Assembly: GCF_000158915.1 (NCBI RefSeq)
Contig: NZ_GG657754.1
Location: forward strand, 10,739,064-10,803,063
Length of the DNA stretch: 64,000 nucleotides
Source of the DNA: Streptomyces himastatinicus ATCC 53653
GTDB lineage: Bacteria > Actinomycetota > Actinomycetes > Streptomycetales > Streptomycetaceae
Reading direction: 5' to 3'
Shown here: piece by piece, positions 1 through 12,031 of the stretch
How positions within the stretch are numbered: the first letter of the stretch is position 1
Layout: each line of letters begins with the position of its first letter
Made by a program: the position numbers and the translations under genes
Notes under the pieces: generated by a model
Seen by the model: only the letters and a program-made list of their open reading frames with translations
Told to the model about the DNA's origin: nothing
The model's database searches: none

Positions 1-1
1 G

Positions 2-955
2 AGCGAAGACCAGCGCGACGCCGACGTCGGTTCCCTGGTCGCCACCGAGGGGGGAAGCCCCCCGAGCGCGTCCAAGGGAGACGGTGCGTCGGATGACGGG
101 GACGATCCGCCGTCCGGCCGCCCGACCAAGGCGCTGCTGGCCGCGGCGGGCATCGGTGGCGCGCTGCTGATCGCCATACCGTTCCTGGTCGCCGGTACCA
201 ACAACGAGGACGACAGCGAACCGGCGGCGAAGGCCCGCGAGACGTCGGCCCGCACCATGCCGACGAGCGACGAGGACGGCGCCCCTGGGGCCTACGCCCC
301 GAAGTCGCCGCCCGCCGACAAGCCGAGCTCCAAGACCAAGGCCAGGGCCAAGGTGAAGTCCAAGGCCCCCGAGAGCTCGGCCAAGCCGAGCCAGAGCCCC
401 ACGAAGGAGGTACAGGAGGCGTCCCGCACCGTCCCCAAGGAGGGAATAAAGGCGTCGCCGAAGCGGTCCGTGGCCCCGATCGACTACTCCAACAAGAAGA
501 ACGTCCTGCTCAGGAACGCGGTCACCGGCAAGTGCGCCGACATCCCTTACTACGGCAAGGGCAAGGTCGACGGTCCGGTCCGGCAGTACGACTGCGACGG
601 CACGGACGCCGACAATCAGATCTGGAACTTCGAGGTGCGGTACAAGGGCCAGGGGCCCGGCTCCGCCAACCTCTTCCAGATCCGTAACGGCAAGGACGGC
701 CTGTGCATGGACCTGCCGTATTACGGCGGTGCCGACCACGGCCAGACGGTCACGGAGTTCCACTGCGACGGCACCACCAAGGACAACCAGTTGTGGTGGC
801 TGGAGAAGCGGGGCGACAAGAAGTTCTGGATCCACAACTACGCCAGCAATCAGCAGTGCCTGGCGGTGAAGGGCGCCCGGGGCACGGGTGACCCTCGCGC
901 CTCACTGGCCATCGGCCCGTGCAGGTCGAACGCCAACCACGAGTGGACGTTCTGA
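2..955 (+). CDS. Membrane-anchored ricin-type (beta-trefoil) lectin domain protein, 5'-partial
   Basis: The reading frame is open to the left edge, so the N-terminus lies outside the window. The visible part has an acidic Ser/Asp-rich stretch, one hydrophobic segment (ALLAAAGIGGALLIAIPFLV, about residues 52-71 of the visible part), a long Lys/Pro/Ser-rich linker, and a C-terminal beta-trefoil region. Two repeats there contain CADIPYYG...DNQIWNF and CMDLPYYG...DNQLWWL, the QxW-type signature of ricin B-like lectins. I infer a type II membrane topology with an extracellular carbohydrate-binding domain on a wall-spanning linker. Related Streptomyces proteins often have a cytoplasmic helix-turn-helix or kinase N-terminus; which one applies cannot be seen. 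Stop TGA at 953-955; a strong hairpin follows. Confidence 0.8.
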   Translation, partial: SEDQRDADVGSLVATEGGSPPSASKGDGASDDGDDPPSGRPTKALLAAAGIGGALLIAIPFLVAGTNNEDDSEPAAKARETSARTMPTSDEDGAPGAYAPKSPPADKPSSKTKARAKVKSKAPESSAKPSQSPTKEVQEASRTVPKEGIKASPKRSVAPIDYSNKKNVLLRNAVTGKCADIPYYGKGKVDGPVRQYDCDGTDADNQIWNFEVRYKGQGPGSANLFQIRNGKDGLCMDLPYYGGADHGQTVTEFHCDGTTKDNQLWWLEKRGDKKFWIHNYASNQQCLAVKGARGTGDPRASLAIGPCRSNANHEWTF

Positions 956-977
956 GAAACGGCCACCCGGGGGCCCC

Positions 978-1013
978 GCGGGCCCCTTCCGCCCCACGGC
1001 GGAGGGGGCCCGC
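978..1013 (+). terminator. GC-rich hairpin after the lectin gene
   Basis: A 16-bp stem (978-993 with 998-1013, one G-U type mismatch) and a 4-nt loop lie 22 bp after the lectin stop codon. There is no U-tract, as is usual for actinomycete terminators. It also separates the lectin gene from the minus-strand remnant that follows. Confidence 0.7.
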
Positions 1014-1066
1014 GCCTTGTCCGAACGGACAGGGCACTTGATCAGCTCAACGAGGCGCCCGGCGCT

Positions 1067-1200
1067 CAGCCGCGTTGGGCGGCTCGCGCGGTCTTGTCGA
1101 GGGTCGGGCCGTACATCGGGGTGCCGCCGTCGCCCTTGCCGTGGCTGTTGACCGAGACCACGGTGCCCTCGCCGGTGGCGGAGTCGAAACCGGTGATCCA
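1067..1200 (-). pseudogene. 3' remnant of a secreted trypsin-like serine peptidase
   Basis: On the minus strand this stretch reads as about 44 residues ending in TGA (1069-1067), with segments GEGTVVSVNSHG and MYGPTLDKTARA. This resembles the C-terminal strand and helix of secreted Streptomyces trypsin-like peptidases, whose last residues usually include a VNS...MYGP pattern. The similarity stops at about 1200, just before the stop codon of the next gene at 1206, and no catalytic Ser, His or Asp region is present. I read it as a truncated gene at a recombination junction. The family call rests on a short match. Confidence 0.5.
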
Positions 1201-1205
1201 ATGCG

Positions 1206-1583
1206 TCAGCCGGGCGGACGGATGTACCGGTTGCGCAGGTTCGTGATCAACCCGTCGGTGTCGACGGTCGCGTGCTCGATCCCGGCCGCGGTCATCAGGC
1301 TGCCGTCGGCCCGGCGCGCCGCGACGACCCAGTGCGACTCGATCGTGCCGTCCTCAAGGATCGTGGTCGTCCAGTAGTGCTTGCTCTCGGCCACCGCCGC
1401 TACGAAGGCCCGGTAGAACTCCATGATCGCGGCGATGCCGGTCACCGGCTCGTCGCGCAGCCTCACGGTGGCGTCCGGCGCGAAGATCGTGGGGAGCTCC
1501 TCCAGCGCCGACGGGTCCCGCACCGCGCGGTCGGCGAGTTCCATGTAGCGGTCGAGTGCTGTCTGCGTCGTCCGGTCCGTCAC
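1206..1583 (-). CDS. NTF2/SnoaL-fold protein, possible epoxide hydrolase/cyclase
   Basis: 125 aa. The GTG start (1583-1581) overlaps the TGA of the upstream flavoprotein gene (GTGA), so the two are translationally coupled. The sequence has the usual NTF2-like layout: N-terminal helix ([13 protein letters not shown]), an [13 protein letters not shown] segment, then beta strands with [11 protein letters not shown] and a terminal [11 protein letters not shown]. The family covers SnoaL cyclases, limonene-epoxide hydrolase and the polyether epoxide hydrolases MonB/Lsd19. Being coupled to a MonCI/Lsd18-like epoxidase makes an epoxide-opening role attractive, but I cannot assign catalytic acids from sequence alone. 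It may instead be a non-catalytic NTF2-like protein. Last gene of the five-gene cluster. Confidence 0.75.
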
Positions 1584-3013
1584 ATCGTCTCCGTCATCGT
1601 GTACTCCTGCCGGATCCGCTCCTCCGGCATACCGTTGACCCGCGCAGCGCGAAGCACCAACTCCGGTGCCATCAGCGACGCGGGATGGGCGGTCATGAAC
1701 CCCACCGCCCGCAGGGCCGTGCCGACCTGCTCGTCCCGGCCCGCCGCCTCCCGCACCTGCCGCATGGCCCACGCCCGCCGCCGCTCCTGCTGAGTGTCCG
1801 GTGGCGCGGCCAGGCCCAGCCGGATGGCGTCGCCGGCCGTGGACGTCTGCCAGGCGGCTTCGACGACGACCTTCTCCAGCTCGAGGAAGTGCCGGGCGGG
1901 GACGTTCAGGTCGGGGCCGGAGCGCAGGTACTCCGACAGGCAGGAGGCGTGGAGCGCGGCCGAGGACATGCCTTGCCCGTACAGGGGGTTGAACGAGGCG
2001 ACGGCGTCGCCGACGACCGCCAGGCGGGCGGGGAAGCGGTCGAGCGCCTCGAAGTGGCGCCACCTGCTGTCGGGGTGGCGGTACGGGACGACCTCGCCGA
2101 CGAGTTCGCCCTTGACGGCTTCCTGGAAGATCGGTGGCAGCTCCCGGCACCGGGCGACGAACTCATCGGACGTGCGGCACTCCGCGCCGTTGCCGAAGGA
2201 GGAGAGCATCACCGCCCACTGCTGGTTCTCGATCGGGCTGACCGCCGCTCCGGCGATGTCCTTCGGGAAGTGCGGGCTGTAGCGGGAGATGCCGCTGAGG
2301 GGGCCGTCCCAGTCGGTCGAGCGCGTGAAGCGGGCGGACAGGTAGCGGATGTCGGCCGGGAGCCGTTCCGTCTCCGGGCGGGGCCAGCCGCCCCGCTCCA
2401 GCCAGTCGGTCAGCCTGCTGCCGCGACCGGAGGCGTCGACGACGAAGTCGGCCGGGACGACGACGTGGTCGCCGCCGCTCGCGTAGCGCACCGACTCGAC
2501 CGCGCCGCGCGCGTACCGCAGCTCGGTGACGCGTCCACACACCAGCTCGACGCCCGGCAGTGCAAGCGTGCGCCGCCGGATCAGCGACTCCAGGAAGGGG
2601 CGACTGCTCCCCACGAACCGCGCGTTGGGGGTGGCTATCTGCTCGACGTCGTCGAGGTAGGTGGCGGTGCGCTCCGGACCGCAGAAGACAGCACCCTCGG
2701 CGAGGGCCTGCGCAACGACACCAGGGAAGAAGCGTTCGAGCTGCGCGTGTCCGCCGGGCAGCAGGAGGTGCACCTGGGGGCCCTGCGGGACGCCGGGACG
2801 AGCCGCGCCGCTCACGGCGGCTTCCGGGTGGTCGGGCTCGATGATCACGACACGGTCGGCGTGGTCCGCGAGCACCCGCGCCGCGACCAGGCCGGCGACG
2901 CTGCCGCCGAGCACGCAGGCGGTGCCGAGATGAATCGTGCTGTGGACCGGCGTGACGGTGGTGGTGAGCCGCTCGAAGACCGCGGCGGGAGAGTTCGGCA
3001 TGTGATCCCTCAT
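1580..3013 (-). CDS. MonCI/Lsd18-like FAD-dependent epoxidase/monooxygenase
   Basis: 477 aa. The ATG start (3013) overlaps the upstream TGA (ATGA); an alternative ATG lies four codons in. The N-terminal Rossmann motif reads [15 protein letters not shown] (about residues 35-49). Further on are [17 protein letters not shown], the [14 protein letters not shown] segment and the second FAD motif [19 protein letters not shown]. This set (GVPQ..H.L, DA(T/S)GRGSRL..WL, GD...FNP.YG.GMSSAA) is typical of the flavin epoxidases of polyether pathways (MonCI, Lsd18), which epoxidise trisubstituted polyene double bonds. Next to a UbiA prenyltransferase, an isoprenyl side chain is the likely substrate. That is inference; simple aromatic hydroxylation remains possible. 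Confidence 0.8.
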
Positions 3014-3639
3014 GCGTCGTGAACGGCGTCTCGATCGAGGAGACTTCGTAGGAAAGTCTCCCGTACGAGACCGATGGGCACGGTCCCACGGCACAGCAGC
3101 GCGGTGACGATCAGCACGGGAGCGCCGGTGTCGCCGGGTGGTCGTACGGCGGGTTCGAGGCGGGTCGGTTCGGAGGACGCGACCATCACGCGCCGCACAC
3201 CACCACCCGCGGCCAGCGCGCGCCCCAGCGGTGTGTCGGTGGTGCTGAGAACGGAGCGTTCCTCGGGGCTGATGCGGTCGAGCGCCACGACGGCGCTCGC
3301 GGTGACGACCTTGTCGGTCCCGGCGCGCAGGTGAACGGTGCGGAACTGCACACGGGCACCCGGCGAAAGCCACATCAGCTCGGCCACCCGCTCCGGCGGT
3401 AAGAAGGCGTCTCCCTCCGCCTGCGCCTCCGCCTGCGTCGATCCCCGGCCGCATGTCCGCTCGGCCGACGGGATGAGCAACCGGCCATCCGCCCGGTGGC
3501 GGACCTCCACGGTGACCGGAGCACCGCACCACTCCTCCAGCACCCCGGTGGCCAACCTCCCTGGCTCCTGAAGGAGCGATACGAACCGGGCCAGGCTGCG
3601 CGACTCCGTGCGTTCGGACGACGGATCCGCATGCCTCAA
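3010..3639 (-). CDS. Chorismate lyase-like protein (UbiC/DUF98 type)
   Basis: 209 aa from a TTG start (3639-3637) that overlaps the ubiA stop (TTGA) and has a GGGGAGAG ribosome site just upstream; no better start lies nearby in this frame. Features include GVLEEWCGAPVTVEV near residue 30 and, towards the C-terminus, ALDRISPEERSVLSTTDTPLGRAL, matching the arrangement of chorismate-pyruvate lyases, which convert chorismate to 4-hydroxybenzoate and pyruvate. Tight coupling to a 4-hydroxybenzoate prenyltransferase supports that role: this gene would supply the prenyl acceptor. Codon 80 (3402-3400) is TTA, read by the bldA tRNA in Streptomyces. The family is diverse, so the exact reaction is inferred. 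Confidence 0.7.
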   Translation of the reverse strand: MRHADPSSERTESRSLARFVSLLQEPGRLATGVLEEWCGAPVTVEVRHRADGRLLIPSAERTCGRGSTQAEAQAEGDAFLPPERVAELMWLSPGARVQFRTVHLRAGTDKVVTASAVVALDRISPEERSVLSTTDTPLGRALAAGGGVRRVMVASSEPTRLEPAVRPPGDTGAPVLIVTALLCRGTVPIGLVRETFLRSLLDRDAVHDA

Positions 3640-4577
3640 AAGACTCTCCCCGCAACAATGGCGACGAGCGCGAGCCACCCGAAGAAGCGATTCGACACGA
3701 ACTTCTCCCGGCAGTCGGCGGGGTCGTCGATATCCACCGCCGCCACCTGCCAGAACAACTGCGCCACGCCCGGCAGGAACAGTGCGTAGAACGTCCAGTG
3801 CAGACCCGCGACGGCTCCGGCGGCCACGATCCCGACCACGGTCGCCCCGTAGAACCCGGCCACCCAGGGCCGGGTCGCCCCGCCGAGGCGCAGCGCGAGG
3901 GACTTCACCCCCACCTGCACGTCGTCCGCCTTGTCCTGGTGGGCGTAGATGGTGTCGTACCCCAGCGTCCAGAAGAAACCGGCGACGTAGAGCAGGAGCG
4001 CGGGAGTCTCGATCCTCCCGGCCACCGCGAGCCAACCCGCGAGGATGTAGCAGCCGAAGACCATCCCCAGCCACGCCTGCGGCCAGTAGGTGATCCGCTT
4101 CATGAACGGGTACGCGACCACCAGCGGATACGAGGCGGCCACGAGCACCGCCGCCGGAACGCTGGCCACAGCCAGCACGAGCAGCGCCGCCACCGCCTGC
4201 ACCACGGCGAAGACAAGCGCCCCCGCGACCGTGACCGTACCGGCCGGGATCGGCCTCGCGACGGTACGTGCCACCCGGGCGTCGACCTCGCGGTCGGCGA
4301 GGTCGTTGACGGTGCAGCCGAAGCCGCGCACCAGCACCGCACCGACCGCGAACGGCAGCACATGCCGCCAGTCGGGCGGCCCCGACGAGGCGAGCGCGAT
4401 CCCCCACAGACCGGGGAGGAGGTACAGCCAACTGCCTATGGGCGCGTGCATCCGCGCCAGCTGGAGATACGGGAGGACGGCCTTCGGCGCACGCGGTACG
4501 ACCGATGCCGCGACGCTCGGCACGACTAACCGGTACCGCCCGCTCTGCTGCGAAGGTTGAGCGGAAATATCGATCAC
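3636..4577 (-). CDS. ubiA: UbiA-family 4-hydroxybenzoate polyprenyltransferase-like
   Basis: 313 aa from GTG 4577. An integral membrane prenyltransferase with about eight or nine hydrophobic segments. The first Asp-rich motif NDLADREVD (residues 91-99) and the second YAHQDKADD (211-219) are the two Mg-diphosphate binding motifs of UbiA enzymes. The spacing and the following VQVGVKSLAL are close to bacterial 4-hydroxybenzoate octaprenyltransferases. Actinomycetes use menaquinone, whose prenyltransferase is MenA, so a UbiC/UbiA pair here points to specialised metabolism rather than ubiquinone. Codon 17 (4529-4527) is TTA. The 69-bp gap to the ligase gene is relatively AT-rich and could hold a promoter. 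Confidence 0.88.
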   Translation of the reverse strand: MIDISAQPSQQSGRYRLVVPSVAASVVPRAPKAVLPYLQLARMHAPIGSWLYLLPGLWGIALASSGPPDWRHVLPFAVGAVLVRGFGCTVNDLADREVDARVARTVARPIPAGTVTVAGALVFAVVQAVAALLVLAVASVPAAVLVAASYPLVVAYPFMKRITYWPQAWLGMVFGCYILAGWLAVAGRIETPALLLYVAGFFWTLGYDTIYAHQDKADDVQVGVKSLALRLGGATRPWVAGFYGATVVGIVAAGAVAGLHWTFYALFLPGVAQLFWQVAAVDIDDPADCREKFVSNRFFGWLALVAIVAGRVF

Positions 4578-4646
4578 CTGACCGTTCGAGAACGATTTTG
4601 GTGACTCTTGCAGAAAGCCAACCCCAAATTGACTAGTTTCCCGTGG

Positions 4647-6149
4647 CTAGACGAACTGGTCGCCCTGTGCGCGAAGCACCCTGCGCACTACCTTGCCGTT
4701 GCCGTTGCGGGGCAGTGCGTCCAGCCATACGACATCCTGCGGAACCTTGTACCAGGACAGGGTGGACCGGGCGAGCTCGACCAACTCGGCGGCAAGTGCG
4801 TCGTCACCCCGCCCCGGCCCTTCCTCGGGCGAGCCCGGTGCCGCGGCGGCGACGACGTAGGCGCGCAGGCTCATGTCTCCGGCCGAGCGCCGCACGGAGC
4901 TGACCGCCGCCTCCAGCACGCGCGGGTGGCTCTCCAGCAGGCGTTCCACCTCGCTCGGCACCACGTTCTTTCCGCCGATCACCTCGACGTCGTCGAGCCG
5001 GCCGTGCGCGTGCACGACACCGTTCCCGTCGATCGAGGCGAGGTCGCCGGTCGGCCACCACACGTCGGTCAGGATGTCGGGTCCGAGGCCGCCGCGGGCG
5101 ACGCCGCGGGTGGCGACGGGGACGCGGATGTGCAGCTCGCCCCTGCTGCCCGTGGGCAGCTCCCGTCCGCCCGCGTCGACGACACGCACCGGCCTGCCGG
5201 GCAGGGGCAGGCCGACCGCCGACGGCACGTCGTAGTCCGCGGGCAGGCCGAGGGCAACGCCACCGGCCTCCGTCGTGCCGTAGGTATTGAGCAGCCGGTC
5301 GCCCATGATGGGCACCAGCTGTTCGCGCAGTCGCGCGGAGAGCACCTCCCCGGCACAGAAGGCCTGACGGACGTTGCCCAGCACCTCGGCGTGGCCGGGT
5401 TCGAGCAGCAGCCGCGCCAGGAAACTCGGCTGCGCGAACAGGACGGTGACGTGGTGCCGGCGCATGAGCTCGACCGCTGCGGCCGGGGTCGCCCGGGGCC
5501 GCGACAGCACGGCCATCTGCCCGGTCTCCAGGGTGGTGAACACCGACGCACTCAGCCCGCCCACGAAATACATGCGCGACACCGAGAGCCCGACGGTGTC
5601 GGGGCCGCTCACCAGACCAGGCGCGCGGGGAGCGCCGAGGTCGCGGTGGCGGAAGAAGCACAACTTCGGCGCCCCGGTGGTGCCGGAGGTGAACACGGCC
5701 AGCGCGGCGGCGTCCCCGCCCGCGGCGAACCCCTCGTCCGGCTCTGCCGCGACGAGCGGACCGACCTCGGTGGTCGGAGTCAGCCCGGTGTCACCGAGCC
5801 ACCCGGCGGTCTCCGAGTCGACCACGGCAAGCGCCGGTTCGGCCGTGACCGCGTCGCGTGTCAGATCCTCCCGGCTCATCTGGACGTTCACCGGCACCGC
5901 GACGAGACCGGCCTGCCACGCGCCGAGCAGACACCACACCATCTGCACACTGTCGGGTAAGGCGAGCAGCACCCGGTCGCCGGCGCGCAGGCCGTACGAC
6001 CGGTATCCGGTCGCCACCCTCGCCGCCCCGTCGAGCACCTCCGCGAAGGTCCACGCCCGGCCGTCGGCGTGGAACGCGGTCCGCTCGCTCCACCCCTCCT
6101 CGCGCACATGTTTCGCCCAACGACGCGTCACGTTCTCGGAGTTGTCCAC
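4647..6149 (-). CDS. ANL-superfamily aryl/acyl-CoA ligase (benzoate-CoA ligase-like)
   Basis: 500 aa from GTG 6149, chosen because GAGAGGA sits 8 nt upstream; a TTG six codons earlier has no ribosome site. Adenylation motifs are complete: P-loop FTSGTTGAPK, NTYGTTEAG, PTGDLASIDGNG with the hinge region after it, and the C-terminal catalytic lysine in PRNGNGKVVRR. The overall form resembles benzoate and 4-hydroxybenzoate CoA ligases: ATP-dependent formation of an acyl-adenylate, then a CoA thioester. In this cluster it may activate a 4-hydroxybenzoate-derived acid or another aryl acid; the substrate is not readable from sequence. Codon 64 (5960-5958) is TTA. Confidence 0.82.
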   Translation of the reverse strand: MDNSENVTRRWAKHVREEGWSERTAFHADGRAWTFAEVLDGAARVATGYRSYGLRAGDRVLLALPDSVQMVWCLLGAWQAGLVAVPVNVQMSREDLTRDAVTAEPALAVVDSETAGWLGDTGLTPTTEVGPLVAAEPDEGFAAGGDAAALAVFTSGTTGAPKLCFFRHRDLGAPRAPGLVSGPDTVGLSVSRMYFVGGLSASVFTTLETGQMAVLSRPRATPAAAVELMRRHHVTVLFAQPSFLARLLLEPGHAEVLGNVRQAFCAGEVLSARLREQLVPIMGDRLLNTYGTTEAGGVALGLPADYDVPSAVGLPLPGRPVRVVDAGGRELPTGSRGELHIRVPVATRGVARGGLGPDILTDVWWPTGDLASIDGNGVVHAHGRLDDVEVIGGKNVVPSEVERLLESHPRVLEAAVSSVRRSAGDMSLRAYVVAAAAPGSPEEGPGRGDDALAAELVELARSTLSWYKVPQDVVWLDALPRNGNGKVVRRVLRAQGDQFV

Positions 6150-6187
6150 CCGGTGATCCTCTCTCAACCCGGGAAGGTGAGGGCTGC

Positions 6188-7219
6188 TTACAGCAGCGTC
6201 GGCGCGTGGAATTCGCCGAGACCGGAGTCCAGGTCCCGGTCCAGCCAGTAGCGGCGCGGTTCCGCGAGCATGACGTCGACGCTGACGGCGAGGATGCCGG
6301 GGATCTTGGCCAGCTCGTTGTCGACGAAGAGCGCCAGGGCGGAGCGTTCGGTGACCAGGCCGATGGCGAGGACGGACATGTCGCTGGCGACGTGGGCGAC
6401 GAGCCGGGTCTGGGGGAGCTGGTCGATGCGGCGCATGACGTCGGGGGTGTCACCCGGGGCCACTCGCAGGTGGAGCATGAAGGGGGTCTGGAAGCCGAGC
6501 CATTCCGACACGATCTCCAGGCGCGGTTTGACCCATCCCTCGTCGAGGACCCGGCGCACGACGCGGTGCGTGGTGGAAGTGGCCAGACCGGCGGTTCGGG
6601 CGACGCCGGCGGCGGAGACCCTGCCGTCCTGGATCAGCTGGGCGACGACCGTGCGTTCGGCCTCGCTGAGCGGTTTGGCGGGGGGTGTCGCGGTGGCGGT
6701 GCCCTCGGGGCGGGCGCCGGTGAGCTCCAGCAGCCCGGCGCGTTCGGTGTCGGTGAGGAACTGCGGGTCCCAGGTGATTCCCCGGCGCAGGGTGCTGAGG
6801 GCGGGCAGAGCGTTGACGCGGCGGACGCCGGGGACGGAGAACATCCGGTCGATCGCCTCGCTGGTGGCGGCCTCGGAGGGGGCGTGGACGACGGCGTAGA
6901 GGGGATAGTCGCCGGAGATCTGTGCCAGAAGCTGGAGGTGGGGCAGGTCACGGAGCCGGTGGAGGACAGCGAGCGGGGTTTCGCCGGTAATGTCCAGGAA
7001 AACGTGCACCGGCATCGTCGTCGAGTGCATGCCCCAGTCGGCCTGCCCGATCACGCGGACCATTCCGGCCTCGCTCAGCCGGTCGTAGCGGCGCTTGAGC
7101 GTGCTGGCGTCGGCGGCCAGGATCCCGCCGATGTCGTCCCAGGTGGCCCGGGGTGCCAGATGCAGCGCGCCGATGAGGCGCCGGTCGAGCTCGTCGAGGA
7201 GAGGGCGGGTCATGGTCAT
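6188..7219 (-). CDS. Double-module Lrp/AsnC-family transcriptional regulator
   Basis: 343 aa, about twice the length of classical Lrp. Module one: an AsnC-type winged helix at about 10-60 (DRRLIGALHLAPRATWDDIG) followed by a RAM-like ligand domain. Module two: a second winged helix around 195-240 (VVAQLIQDGRVSAAGVART) and a second RAM-like domain ending near LAEPRRYWLD. Tandem Lrp proteins of this size are common in Streptomyces and usually regulate a divergent neighbour. Here that is the AbgT transporter gene, across a 109-bp gap with two short palindromes. The ATG at 7219 is followed by another two codons later. Confidence 0.88.
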   Translation of the reverse strand: MTMTRPLLDELDRRLIGALHLAPRATWDDIGGILAADASTLKRRYDRLSEAGMVRVIGQADWGMHSTTMPVHVFLDITGETPLAVLHRLRDLPHLQLLAQISGDYPLYAVVHAPSEAATSEAIDRMFSVPGVRRVNALPALSTLRRGITWDPQFLTDTERAGLLELTGARPEGTATATPPAKPLSEAERTVVAQLIQDGRVSAAGVARTAGLATSTTHRVVRRVLDEGWVKPRLEIVSEWLGFQTPFMLHLRVAPGDTPDVMRRIDQLPQTRLVAHVASDMSVLAIGLVTERSALALFVDNELAKIPGILAVSVDVMLAEPRRYWLDRDLDSGLGEFHAPTLL

Positions 7220-7263
7220 TCACCTTAGCCTGCCGGTTAATCCCACTATTACATCCTGAGACT

Positions 7264-7302
7264 AGAGAATCTCTCGCCTGAGTGTCATTGTTCGCAGGAA
7301 CA
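7264..7302. promoter_or_regulatory. Two short palindromes in the Lrp/AbgT divergent region
   Basis: AGAGAATCTCT (7264-7274) is a perfect palindrome around one central base, and TGTTCGCAGGAACA (7289-7302) has 5-bp arms around GCAG. They lie between the start codons of the divergent genes and are the best visible candidates for Lrp-type operator sites. Binding is inferred. Confidence 0.4.
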
Positions 7303-7328
7303 TCCCTCGTACGCACAAAGAGGTACCG

Positions 7329-8882
7329 ATGAGTGCCACCTCCGCTCCGCCTCAGCCGACCGAGCCCCAGTCGAGAGCCCTGCGCACCGCGTTCCGCAGT
7401 TTCGCGGCGATCGAGAAGGTCGGTAACAAACTCCCCAACCCGTTCTGGCTGTTCTGGATCCTCGCGGGGGTCGTCGCAGTCCTCAGCGCCGTGCTGGCGG
7501 CGGTCGGCGTCAGCGCCGTGCACCCCGGCACGCACGAGACCATCAAGGTGGAGAACCTGCTCAGCAAGGACGGCCTCACCATGGCCGTCGAGGGGGCCGT
7601 CGACAACTTCGCGGCCTTCCCGCCCCTGGCCACCATCCTCACCGTGATGTTCGGCATCGCCGTCGCCGAGCGGAGCGGACTGTTCTCCGCCCTGCTGCGC
7701 CGCATGGTCGCGCGGGTGCCGGGCAGGTACCTCACCTTCGCCCTGTCGATGACGGCCATGATCAGCCATGTCGCCGGAGACGCCGCCTACGTCACCCTCA
7801 TCCCGCTGGGCGCGTTGATCTTCCGTGCGGCAGGCCGCAGCCCGGTGCTCGGCTGCATCGTCGCCTACGTCTCGATCTCCGCCGGGTACGACGCCTCCCC
7901 ATCGCTCACCACCACCGACGTACTGCTGTCCTCGATCTCCACCGCCGCCGCCCACACCATCGACGCGAACTACGTCGTCACCCCGGTGGCCAACTACTTC
8001 TTCGGGCTCGGCTCCTCCGCCCTGGTGGCCTTGGTGATCACCTTCGTCGTCGACAAGGTCCTCGCCCGCCGCTCCGACCTGGAGCCCGACGCGCCGGTCG
8101 CCGCGCCGGACGCCGCGGAGCTGGAGGCGATCGAGGTCACCGGACAGCAGCGCCGCGCGCTGCGCGTGACCGGGCTGGTCGCCATCGGCTTCATCGCGTT
8201 CCTGGCGGTGGCCATGATCCCCTCGTCCTCACCGCTGCGCGGCGAGGATGGCGGCATCGTCGACTCCCTGCTGATCGGCGGGATGGCGCTCGTCCTGGGC
8301 GTGTTCTTCGCCGTGCTCGGCACCGTCTACGGCCGGATGACCGGCACCTTCTCCGCCTCCCGCGACATCATCGCCGCGATGGTCGACGGAACCCGGTCGA
8401 TGGCGCCGATCCTGGTCCTGTTCTTCGCGATCTCCCAGTTCCTCGCCTACTTCAAGTGGACGAACATCGGCAACATCCTCGCCGTCAAGGGCGCGGAGGC
8501 GCTGCGTGGCCTGGACATGCACGGCTGGACCGTGCTGGTCGGCGTCGCCGTGCTGATCACGTTCATGAACCTCGTCATCACCAGCGGCTCCGCGCTCTGG
8601 GCGCTGGCCGCGCCGGTGCTCGTGCCCATGCTGATGCTGATCGGCATCGAACCCGAGGTCACCCAGGCCGTCTACCGCGTCGCCGACTCGGTCACCAACT
8701 GCGTCACCCCGATGAGCCCGTACTTCGTGATGGCCCTGGGCTTCATCCAGCAGTACCGCAAGTCCGCGGGCATCGGCACCCTGGCCTCCTTCACGATCCC
8801 GATCGCCGCCGCCGTCTGGGTCGTCTGGGTCGCGTTCTTCGTGGCCTGGTACCTGCTTGGCATTCCCTTCGGCGTCAGCTGA
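7329..8882 (+). CDS. abgT: AbgT-family p-aminobenzoyl-glutamate transporter
   Basis: 517 aa membrane protein with about 12 hydrophobic segments. The N-terminal signature (VGNKLPNPFWLFWIL, residues 37-51), the polar membrane stretch ISAGYDASPSL and the C-terminal ITSGSALWALAAPVLVPM followed by SVTNCVTPMSPY are characteristic of AbgT proteins. Family members import p-aminobenzoyl-glutamate, a folate breakdown product; some have been reported to export sulfonamides. The M20 peptidase 50 bp downstream fits import followed by hydrolysis. Ribosome site AAGAGG precedes the ATG. Expression is probably governed by the divergent Lrp-type regulator. Confidence 0.92.
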   Translation: MSATSAPPQPTEPQSRALRTAFRSFAAIEKVGNKLPNPFWLFWILAGVVAVLSAVLAAVGVSAVHPGTHETIKVENLLSKDGLTMAVEGAVDNFAAFPPLATILTVMFGIAVAERSGLFSALLRRMVARVPGRYLTFALSMTAMISHVAGDAAYVTLIPLGALIFRAAGRSPVLGCIVAYVSISAGYDASPSLTTTDVLLSSISTAAAHTIDANYVVTPVANYFFGLGSSALVALVITFVVDKVLARRSDLEPDAPVAAPDAAELEAIEVTGQQRRALRVTGLVAIGFIAFLAVAMIPSSSPLRGEDGGIVDSLLIGGMALVLGVFFAVLGTVYGRMTGTFSASRDIIAAMVDGTRSMAPILVLFFAISQFLAYFKWTNIGNILAVKGAEALRGLDMHGWTVLVGVAVLITFMNLVITSGSALWALAAPVLVPMLMLIGIEPEVTQAVYRVADSVTNCVTPMSPYFVMALGFIQQYRKSAGIGTLASFTIPIAAAVWVVWVAFFVAWYLLGIPFGVS

Positions 8883-8932
8883 CCCCGACTGCCGAGGAAC
8901 GTCGCCCACCACCCTCCAAGAGAAAGCAGATC

Positions 8933-10114
8933 ATGACCGCATCGCCCGCTGCCGCCCTCACCTCCCGAGCCCAGGACGTCTCGTCGGAGATCATCACCGA
9001 CATCCTGACCCTCGTCCGCCACGAGAGCAGCAGCTACGACCTGCCCGCCCTGGCGGCGGGCCTGGACCTCCTGCGGCGCCTGGCCGTCCACCGGCTCGGC
9101 CGGCCCGACCGCGAACAGCGCCACCCCGGCGGCGAGCACGGCGACACCCTCACCCTGACCTACACCGGTACCGGCGCCGGGCACGTCGCGCTCGTCGGCC
9201 ACTACGACACCGTATGGCCGACCGGCACCCTCGCCGGGTGGGAGCAGCCGGAGGCGTCCGACCACGGCCGGGAGAAGCTCAGCGGGCCGGGCATCTTCGA
9301 CATGAAGACCGGCCTGGCCCAAGGCATCTGGGCCCTGAAACTGGCCCGGGAGAGCGGCGCACCCGTGCCCACCGTCACCTTCCTCTTCAACGGCGACGAG
9401 GAGATCGGCTCCCTGTCCTCGCGACCGCTGATCGAGGAGGTCGCGCAGAAGGCCGACGTCACGCTGGTGCTGGAGCCGACCGCCCACGGCGCGGTCAAGA
9501 CCGCCCGCAAGGGCTCCGGGATCTTCCGGGTCACTGCCACCGGCGTCGAGGCGCACGCCGGGCTCGCACCTCAGAACGGGGCGAGCGCGATCACCGCGCT
9601 GTCCGAGTTCGTGGTCGCCGCCGCGGCCGTCGCCGCCCCCGACCAGGGCACCACGATCAACACCGGGCTCATCAACGGCGGCTCCGCCACCAACGTCGTC
9701 GCCGGGCAGGCCACCGCCAGCGTCGACATCCGCGTCAGCAGCGTGGCCGAACAGGCCCGTGTCGACCACGAACTGGACGCCATCCAGATCAGCGACCCCC
9801 GCGTCCGCATCGACATCGAACACACCTGGAACCGGCCGCCGATGACCCTCAACGCCGCCTCCGCCCCCCTGCTCGCCCTCGCCCGAGAGGTCGCCCGCGA
9901 GCAGGGCCGCGACGACCTGCCCGACGCCGCCGTCGGCGGCGCCAGCGACGCCAACTTCGTTGCCGCCCTCGGGCTGCCCGTACTGTGCGGCATAGGCGCG
10001 GTCGGCGACGGAGCCCACGCCCAGGGCGAGTTCATCTACCCCGACACCGTGCCCGCCCAGACCGCCCTGGTCACGGGACTGCTGGGACGACTGGCAGGAC
10101 CGCTGCGGGACTGA
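8933..10114 (+). CDS. M20 metallopeptidase, glutamate carboxypeptidase (CPG2)-like
   Basis: 393 aa. M20 metal-site motifs are visible in order: GHYDTVWPTG (first His), GIFDMKTGL (bridging Asp), NGDEEIGS (catalytic Glu), VLEPTAHG, and the C-terminal GDGAHAQGEFIY (last His). A dimerisation domain lies between about 175 and 290. The closest functional type is carboxypeptidase G2, which removes glutamate from folates and p-aminobenzoyl-glutamate. Together with AbgT it would release p-aminobenzoate and glutamate inside the cell. The ATG at 8933 has AGAAAGCAGA upstream. No signal peptide is seen, so a cytoplasmic location is likely. Confidence 0.87.
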   Translation: MTASPAAALTSRAQDVSSEIITDILTLVRHESSSYDLPALAAGLDLLRRLAVHRLGRPDREQRHPGGEHGDTLTLTYTGTGAGHVALVGHYDTVWPTGTLAGWEQPEASDHGREKLSGPGIFDMKTGLAQGIWALKLARESGAPVPTVTFLFNGDEEIGSLSSRPLIEEVAQKADVTLVLEPTAHGAVKTARKGSGIFRVTATGVEAHAGLAPQNGASAITALSEFVVAAAAVAAPDQGTTINTGLINGGSATNVVAGQATASVDIRVSSVAEQARVDHELDAIQISDPRVRIDIEHTWNRPPMTLNAASAPLLALAREVAREQGRDDLPDAAVGGASDANFVAALGLPVLCGIGAVGDGAHAQGEFIYPDTVPAQTALVTGLLGRLAGPLRD

Positions 10115-10191
10115 GCCGTGGCCTAGCGGAGCCGGGGACTTCGGGACGTGCAGGGCCTCGCCGCGGGTGGCGTGCTCGTGGGCGATGAGGC

Positions 10192-11172
10192 TTACTCGGG
10201 AGGCCGGGACGAATACGAGTCGGTGCTCACCCGGCTACGCCTCGCCACGCGAGCCGAACTTGGCCGCATGTGCTCCCGCGCCCATTCCTCGAAGCTGGTG
10301 AGGGGGATGCCGAGCTCCCTCGCGTACTGCGGGCGGCCCGGCTGGCCGACCACGTTCAGCCACTCGTGGTGGGCGCCCATCGCCGGCATTCCGGCGGCGA
10401 AGGCCTCCTCCTCGGTCATGTCCGGAGCGGACAGTCGCGTGCCCAGGGCGCGGGAGAGGGTCTCGGCGATCTCCGTCATCGACAGGTAGTCGCTCGCCAG
10501 CTCCAGCTCGACCCCGTCGAATCGCTCCGGCGCGGCGATGGCCGCGGCGGCCGCCCTGCCGATGTCGTCCACCGCGACCAGGGACAGCCGGGTCCCGGGG
10601 TTCAGGACGCTCACCAGGCCGCCCTCGATGCCGAGCGGGAACAGGAACGCCATGGACGGGAGGAAGTTCTCCATGAAGAAGCCCGGCTTGAGGAGCGTCC
10701 AGTGAGGGAAGTCGGCCGCGCGGACCCGGTCCTGGATCGCGCTCTTGGCGCCCAGGGTGGGTTCCATCGGGGCCCAGCGGCCTTCGGCCCAGCCGGGAGC
10801 CTCGGTGTGCCGCCCGGCGCCGGTGACGGACGTGTGCACGAACTGCGGCACTCCGGCGGCCTTCGCGCCCTCGACGAGGTTGACGCCCTGGGCCACCTCG
10901 CCTTCGAAGTCGAAGCCTTCCGCGGTGATGCCGGGCATCTGCACGGAGAAGACGGCGCGGGCGCCCTCGGCGGCCCGGATCACGGAATCGAGGTCGTGAA
11001 GATCGCCGGTGACCAGTTCGGCGCCGAGTGCCTCGACGGCCTTGGCCCGGTCGGTGGCCGGGTCGCGCACCAGAGCGCGGACGGGAACGTCCGCCGCGAG
11101 CAGTGCGCGGGCGGTGGCCCCGCCCTGCTTGCCGGTGGCACCGGTGACCAGGACGGGCGCGGCTGTGGACAT
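10192..11172 (-). CDS. NmrA-like NAD(P)-binding protein
   Basis: 326 aa from ATG 11172, with GGGGAG 5 nt upstream; an in-frame ATG eight codons earlier lacks a ribosome site. The N-terminal VLVTGATGKQGGATARALL (about residues 7-25) is the NAD(P) motif of atypical short-chain dehydrogenases of the NmrA/HSCARG type. The sequence ends with a basic, Ser-rich tail (after WAREHMR) that looks non-conserved. The family includes redox-sensing regulators and quinone- or azo-type reductases; the substrate is unknown. It is transcribed away from the TetR gene and probably controlled by it through the palindromes between them. Stop TAA (10194-10192). Confidence 0.83.
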   Translation of the reverse strand: MSTAAPVLVTGATGKQGGATARALLAADVPVRALVRDPATDRAKAVEALGAELVTGDLHDLDSVIRAAEGARAVFSVQMPGITAEGFDFEGEVAQGVNLVEGAKAAGVPQFVHTSVTGAGRHTEAPGWAEGRWAPMEPTLGAKSAIQDRVRAADFPHWTLLKPGFFMENFLPSMAFLFPLGIEGGLVSVLNPGTRLSLVAVDDIGRAAAAAIAAPERFDGVELELASDYLSMTEIAETLSRALGTRLSAPDMTEEEAFAAGMPAMGAHHEWLNVVGQPGRPQYARELGIPLTSFEEWAREHMRPSSARVARRSRVSTDSYSSRPPE

Positions 11173-11197
11173 GGTGCTCCCCGGGGACTCGTCCATT

Positions 11198-11248
11198 AAA
11201 CGGCGGGGCCCGCCGTTTCTGCTCCGGTACGATACGGCGGGGCCCGCC
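11198..11248. promoter_or_regulatory. Tandem palindromic operators between NmrA-like and TetR genes
   Basis: The 14-mer CGGCGGGGCCCGCC occurs at 11201-11214 and again at 11235-11248, 34 bp apart. Each copy is itself nearly palindromic; the first extends to a 21-bp palindrome with AAA/TTT flanks (11198-11218). Two such sites in a divergent promoter are a typical TetR-repressor layout. Binding is inferred. Confidence 0.65.
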
Positions 11249-11273
11249 ACTTAGCAATCCTGGAGCTGACGCC

Positions 11274-11828
11274 ATGCCCGAGCGCCAACGTGCGGACGCT
11301 CGCCGCAACTACACACGCATCCTCGCCGTGGCCGAGGAGGAGGTCGCCGCCCATGGCGCCGACGCCTCCCTGGAACAGATCGCCCGCACTGCGGGGGTCG
11401 GCTCGGCGACCGTGCGCCGCCACTTCCCCACGCGCCGCGCACTGCTGGAGGCGGTCTCCCGGAAACGCATCGACGCCCTGTGCGCCCGCGCCCACGACCT
11501 GACCGGTCGGCGCGACAGCCGGAACGCGCTCCTGGAATGGCTGAGCGACGTCGTCGCCTACTCCGTCTCCGCCCGGGGGCTGGCGGCCGCACTGGCCTAC
11601 GACGGCCCGGTGCACGAGAACGGCTGTTCGGCGGCACTGGAAGAGGCAGCAGGCCCTCTGCTGCACCGCGCCGCGCAGGAGGGCGCGGTGGCGGCGGGCG
11701 TCACGGTCGCCGACCTGATCACCCTGGTCGTCGGCATCGCCCTGGCCACGGAGCACTACCCCGACCCCGCCGCCCAGGCGGACCGGCTCTTCCGGCTGGC
11801 CGTGGCGGGGCTGAGCCCGCAGAGCTGA
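11274..11828 (+). CDS. TetR-family transcriptional regulator
   Basis: 184 aa. The N-terminal TetR helix-turn-helix covers about residues 10-57, with LEQIARTAGVGSATVRRHF as the DNA-binding motif; the remaining helical region is a ligand/dimerisation domain. ATG at 11274 with TGGAG 8 nt upstream. It lies divergent from the NmrA-like gene with two strong palindromes between, so it most likely represses both genes. The inducing ligand is unknown. Confidence 0.88.
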   Translation: MPERQRADARRNYTRILAVAEEEVAAHGADASLEQIARTAGVGSATVRRHFPTRRALLEAVSRKRIDALCARAHDLTGRRDSRNALLEWLSDVVAYSVSARGLAAALAYDGPVHENGCSAALEEAAGPLLHRAAQEGAVAAGVTVADLITLVVGIALATEHYPDPAAQADRLFRLAVAGLSPQS

Positions 11829-12031
11829 ACAAGGCTCGACCGGCGGAGTCGATGATCCTCCGGACAGGAGCTGACCAGCCCCGTCGGCGGCAGGATGGGG
11901 GCGTTCCCGTCGGATCGTTTGACGAGCACGCCACGTTCGGTGGGAGCTCCGGTGCGGACGAGGGCTGCTGTGACGAGCCACGGGTCCGCCCTGCCTGCGC
12001 CGCGCGTCCCCATAAACGAGTGGCCGTGGGC

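Follow-up and report, generated by a model that had tools for sequence, protein, structure and literature searches.

The xiamenmycin biosynthetic genes ximA to ximE were described in 2014 for Streptomyces xiamenensis 318 on the evidence of knockouts, expression in S. lividans, and in vitro assays, and homologues in S. himastatinicus were also tabulated (PMC4053376). In vitro, XimC makes 4-hydroxybenzoate from chorismate; of the compounds offered to XimB, 4-hydroxybenzoate and geranyl diphosphate were the only ones accepted. Xiamenmycin B was obtained when XimD and XimE were combined in the presence of XimB membranes, and neither XimD nor XimE alone sufficed; XimD and XimE with added FAD, FMN, NAD, or NADP gave the geranylated precursor only. 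XimA attached L-threonine when ATP was supplied, an assay with CoA yielded no acylated product, and a ximA deletion mutant accumulates xiamenmycin B (all PMC4053376). In later assays, as presented in the available excerpt of PMC8827043, the epoxide formed by XimD is unstable and cyclizes to a benzofuran, and XimE directs closure to the pyran.

The window (the whole stretch of DNA analyzed, 64,000 nucleotides) was compared with this system. Reading of the open reading frames revealed five intact genes on the minus strand at positions 1206 to 6167, which are real and ordered as first noted:

4647..6167, minus strand: ximA homologue, adenylate-forming amide synthetase; PF00501/PF13193; 89.2% identical to XimA of L040
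3636..4577, minus strand: ximB homologue, UbiA-type 4-hydroxybenzoate geranyltransferase, 313 aa; TIGR01474; 281/313 residues identical to XimB of L040
3010..3639, minus strand: ximC homologue, predicted divergent chorismate lyase, 209 aa from a TTG start; 159/207 residues identical to XimC of L040
1580..3013, minus strand: ximD homologue, flavin-dependent epoxidase; 419/470 residues identical to XimD of L040; matches to LasC/Lsd18 and MonCI
1206..1583, minus strand: ximE homologue, SnoaL-like (NTF2-fold) pyran cyclase, 125 aa; 112/122 residues identical to 6ISK and 113/125 to L040
1205..6175, minus strand: span of DNA homology, 91 to 93% identity in three pieces, common to four other xim cassettes (blastn)

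The original prediction had described five minus-strand genes, four of them overlapping start to stop; the reading frames are intact, and 4-base start-to-stop overlaps are present at all three of the ximB-ximC, ximC-ximD, and ximD-ximE junctions, while a spacer of 69 bp lies between ximA and ximB. The encoded proteins have 506 (or 500), 313, 209, 477 (or 473), and 125 aa for XimA to XimE, respectively, and the S. xiamenensis 318 proteins have 520, 313, 196, 473, and 124 aa (PMC4053376).

Locus L040 has all five genes as well, with order and strand unchanged. It was treated as S. xiamenensis 318 because the position of its cluster fits and because its XimE is identical to the 6ISK chain at 122/122 residues: ximC of L040 (genome G627) lies at 214,617 to 215,225, and the xim cluster of S. 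xiamenensis 318 is placed inside an island at 200,207 to 261,593 in the available part of PMC4705527. Protein identities between the window and L040 were 89.2, 89.8, 76.8, 89.1, and 90.4% for XimA to XimE. These values are close to those printed for S. himastatinicus ATCC 53653 versus S. xiamenensis (89, 90, 78, 89, and 92; Table 1 in PMC4053376), whereas three further cassettes (L007, L008, and L009) are nearer to L040 (92 to 97%). On these values, the window cassette might belong to S. himastatinicus or to a close relative. We establish here the orthology, the gene order, and the intactness of the window cassette, and we place the probability that the five genes are the xiamenmycin (ximA-E) biosynthetic cluster at roughly 0.96. 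The orthology suggests that the strain carrying the window would make the same product as S. xiamenensis.

The domain names first given hold, with two refinements: the chorismate-lyase-like protein falls outside all Pfam and NCBIfam families, and the NTF2 protein belongs to the SnoaL_2 type. The UbiA protein matched PF01040 (E 2.7e-61) and the 4-hydroxybenzoate octaprenyltransferase model TIGR01474 with 294 bits, above the curated cutoff of 275. A search of plasmids with this protein returned 48 records, every one below 60% identity. The prenyl donor, previously left unspecified, is geranyl diphosphate.

The window XimC showed no family match in Pfam (E up to 1) or NCBIfam (E up to 0.1), and no profile of the chorismate lyase families in these databases matched it. 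Its best PDB match, 2nwi, was weak (E 0.021 as a single sequence and 0.0084 as a profile). When an alignment of four XimC sequences was compared with Pfam, one member gave a single weak match to another family (E 0.17), and the AlphaFold model generated from this alignment (mean pLDDT of 35.9) was too poor for use. Because it is orthologous to the assayed XimC, the window protein should nevertheless work like a chorismate lyase.

The window XimD has 477 aa from the ATG at 3013 or 473 aa, the published XimD length, from the ATG at 3001. It matched FAD_binding_3 of Pfam weakly (E 6.4e-6). Comparison by phmmer gave E values of 6e-35 against LasC/Lsd18 and 6.4e-34 against MonCI, as the proposed MonCI/Lsd18-like flavin epoxidase would predict, and residues 30 to 457 of 477 align with LasC, so that the homology covers most of the protein.

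The window XimE matched SnoaL_2 of Pfam (E 5.9e-9). Its best PDB match was XimE itself (6ISK; E 2.3e-71, 112/122 residues identical; phmmer), and neither MonB nor Lsd19 was among its 20 PDB matches with E values up to 1. On these sequence matches, an assignment as an epoxide hydrolase like MonB and Lsd19, the enzymes named for comparison in the original prediction, is rejected in favor of the SnoaL-like pyran cyclase XimE. The review positions of XimE were mapped onto the window with an offset of 33 taken from the 6ISK alignment. Residues E136, Y46, and H102 (6ISK chain numbering), stated to matter for XimE in the available excerpt of PMC8827043, are conserved in the window protein (3/3). The same excerpt names Y119 as an engineered position, and with the same offset this position is V in the window. 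Y119 probably follows another numbering, the untagged one, since XimE has 124 aa.

The window XimA starts at GTG 6149 (500 aa) or, by alignment with its relatives, at TTG 6167 (506 aa) and stops at 4647. It matched PF00501 (E 4.5e-58) and PF13193, and its best NCBIfam match, FadD22 with 242 bits, lies far under the cutoff of 1228. The protein is identical to XimA of L040 at 446/500 residues (89.2%) and shares 91 to 92% identity with the L007 to L009 proteins. The gene had been called a CoA ligase and left out of the predicted route; this role is rejected because CoA gave no acylated product with the published enzyme, and the gene corresponds to XimA, the ATP-dependent amide synthetase that adds L-threonine (PMC4053376). 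To judge from its family, XimA would act through an adenylate.

The proposed route of chorismate to 4-hydroxybenzoate, prenylation, epoxidation, and opening or cyclization of the epoxide is essentially the published xiamenmycin route (PMC4053376). In the window, XimC would convert chorismate to 4-hydroxybenzoate, and XimB, the UbiA-type enzyme, would transfer the geranyl group of geranyl diphosphate onto it. XimD, an FAD monooxygenase of the Lsd18/MonCI group, would then epoxidize the geranyl chain; the product structure points to the double bond closest to the ring as the site. XimE is predicted to guide the ring closure, in which the phenol attacks the epoxide, toward the six-membered pyran (xiamenmycin B) and not the spontaneous benzofuran. 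As the last step, XimA with ATP would join the carboxyl group to L-threonine, giving xiamenmycin A. By analogy, the product class would be an amide-linked prenylated benzopyran derived from chorismate.

All five genes occur in order in L007 (Streptomyces sp. NBRC 110028), L008 (S. sparsogenes ATCC 25498), L009 (Streptomyces sp. NBS 14/10), and L040; the colinearity of the block in these four loci indicates more than a chance arrangement. A search with XimD found six named loci, three with the five-gene set and three without it (L010, L011, and L012). The latter carry XimD relatives at 72, 57, and 48% identity, respectively, and gave no XimB, XimC, or XimE match; L010 and L011 each have, several kilobases away, a ligase match of low identity (36 and 30%, respectively). 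The XimC alignment matched in 4/394 family genomes: the matches in G627 and in the genome of the window span the full length, and those in the other two are partial and weak (E 1.6e-4 and 2.4e-4). Among 100 relatives, the two XimC matches were the window itself and one weak match (E 5.6e-4). XimE matched in 17/392 genus genomes, including the window's own, and the best other match was 61% identical.

The limits of the cassette were determined by blastn (word size 11, E 1e-5) of window positions 1 to 12000 against L040, L007, L008, and L009. Homology to each of the four was confined to 1205 to 6175, in three pieces at 91 to 93% identity, and nothing was found outside this span in the region searched. 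Among themselves, the four relatives have 5.4 to 5.6 kb in common at 96 to 98% identity (6 pairs), with no other common piece above 150 bp among those listed. Since homology ends at 1205 to 6175 and the flanks are unrelated, the xim cluster appears to be a tight cassette in differing surroundings, which agrees with the horizontal transfer suggested in the available part of PMC4705527.

Some small details are new. Upstream of ximA, the four relatives have a common stretch of 122 to about 260 bp that is absent from the window. The ximA-ximB spacers of the relatives measure 224 to 228 bp, and the window is without about 155 to 160 bp of this spacer. The XimA C terminus is 14 residues shorter than in L007 to L009 and L040. 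A gene for an AsnC-type regulator (6188 to 7219) adjoins the cassette, its end lying 20 bp upstream of the ximA TTG start. No AsnC match was found in about 4.6 to 6 kb upstream of ximA in L007, L008, and L040 (L009, with less than 300 bp there, was excluded), and the AsnC gene was rejected as a conserved member of the cluster on this basis. Expression of the window cassette could differ or fail because of the short XimA, the 69-bp spacer, and the missing upstream stretch of at least 122 bp.

ximA may be read through from the AsnC gene. A regulatory variant, in which the cassette is read with the AsnC gene and responds to the ligand of that regulator and in which the short XimA moves production toward xiamenmycin B or a different amide, seems unlikely to us. 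It is quite improbable that a xiamenmycin-type pathway here leads to another end product, either because XimA adds a different amino acid or because no amide is formed and xiamenmycin B or a relative accumulates. The shortened XimA C terminus and the shorter adjoining spacer would be consistent with such an outcome, as would the accumulation of xiamenmycin B in the published ximA mutant (PMC4053376). However, the AMP-binding_C match stops at residue 486 in the 500-aa protein, short of the lost tail, the rest of XimA is 89 to 92% identical, and the PRNGNGK stretch near the end is intact. The lysine of this stretch is presumably the usual catalytic lysine.

A side branch of respiratory quinone (ubiquinone) synthesis has a negligible probability: the UbiA protein passes the TIGR01474 octaprenyltransferase model, but the gene-for-gene orthology with ximA-E, a tested secondary-metabolite pathway, and the patchy spread (full-length XimC in 2/394 family genomes) led us to reject it. 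Nor is an epoxidase-cyclase pair known to have a place in ubiquinone synthesis, and actinomycetes are not known to make ubiquinone. Ubiquinone synthesis in Streptomyces is spoken of in the available part of PMC4705527. An undescribed hybrid of meroterpenoid and polyether chemistry, the original prediction, would be allowed by the domain set alone but is refuted as such, since ximA-E were knocked out, heterologously expressed, and assayed in vitro in 2014 (PMC4053376); we give it practically no chance.

The original interpretation as a whole is thus partly supported. With respect to novelty the result is ordinary: the pathway is already known, and the window holds one more copy of its gene cluster. 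With pathway and enzymes in print and XimE available as a crystal structure (PDB 6ISK/6ISL), this lead is closed; its remaining use is as one more natural variant of XimA-E, 77 to 90% identical, and as evidence for a compact five-gene cassette whose flanks are unrelated.

Among known systems, the polyether epoxidases LasC/Lsd18 and MonCI belong to the same flavoprotein group as the window XimD. LasC/Lsd18 and MonCI act on polyketide polyenes. The substrate of XimD, in contrast, is a geranyl chain according to the available excerpt of PMC8827043. XimE, the partner of XimD, has no sequence match to MonB or Lsd19 among the 20 PDB matches. The closest comparison is with S. xiamenensis 318 (L040), with which the window shares 91 to 92% DNA identity in three pieces over 1205 to 6173. 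The two differ in their flanks, in the common stretch upstream of ximA that the window lacks, in the ximA-ximB spacer (224 bp versus 69 bp in the window), and in the length of XimA (520 aa versus 506 aa in the window). They also differ in TTA codons counted from matched starts: L040 has two in ximC and none in the other four genes, whereas the window carries one each in ximA, ximB, and ximC.

Analysis of the genes adjoining the ximA-E cassette revealed the following features:

257-955, plus strand: ORF whose product carries a ricin-type beta-trefoil lectin domain (PF00652, E-value 2.3e-15)
6188-7219: AsnC-type regulator gene, 3' end 20 bp upstream of ximA
7329-8882: AbgT-family transporter gene, divergent from the AsnC-type regulator gene

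Searching the fetched flanks of three relatives carrying full ximA-E, Streptomyces sp. NBRC 110028 (L007), S. sparsogenes ATCC 25498 (L008), and the locus taken as S. xiamenensis 318 (L040), revealed no match to the AsnC-type regulator. The lectin-domain ORF adjoins ximE on its far side in convergent orientation.

XimD-like proteins were also found outside the cassette:

L004:1501-2859 (C2:2491621-2492985): second XimD-like protein, window's own genome (47-48% identity)
L014:83-1866 (also L034): XimD-XimE-like pair, another genome of the genus (47% for XimD, 61% for XimE)
L010:7968-9398: XimD relative, Actinophytocola oryzae (72% identity)

The window's own genome additionally encodes remoter XimD-like proteins (about 31-40% identity). 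Three of five neighbors scanned in L035 could be assigned: one as an MmyB-like regulator, one as a zinc dehydrogenase, and one as an amine oxidase. The 3.4-kb L014 locus contained no matches to XimA, XimB, or XimC, and no prenyltransferase was present among five further ORFs scanned in L034. This pair possibly represents an epoxidase-cyclase couple belonging to a different pathway. The A. oryzae gene is flanked by a carbohydrate kinase gene on one side and a regulator gene on the other, and matches to XimB, XimC, and XimE were absent from its 17-kb locus. The A. oryzae product is a putative epoxidase.

TTA (bldA-type) codons were counted in the xim genes of the window and L040 from matched starts. 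In the window, ximA (4647-6167), ximB (3636-4577), and ximC (3010-3639) contain one each, whereas in L040 ximC contains two and the other four genes contain none.
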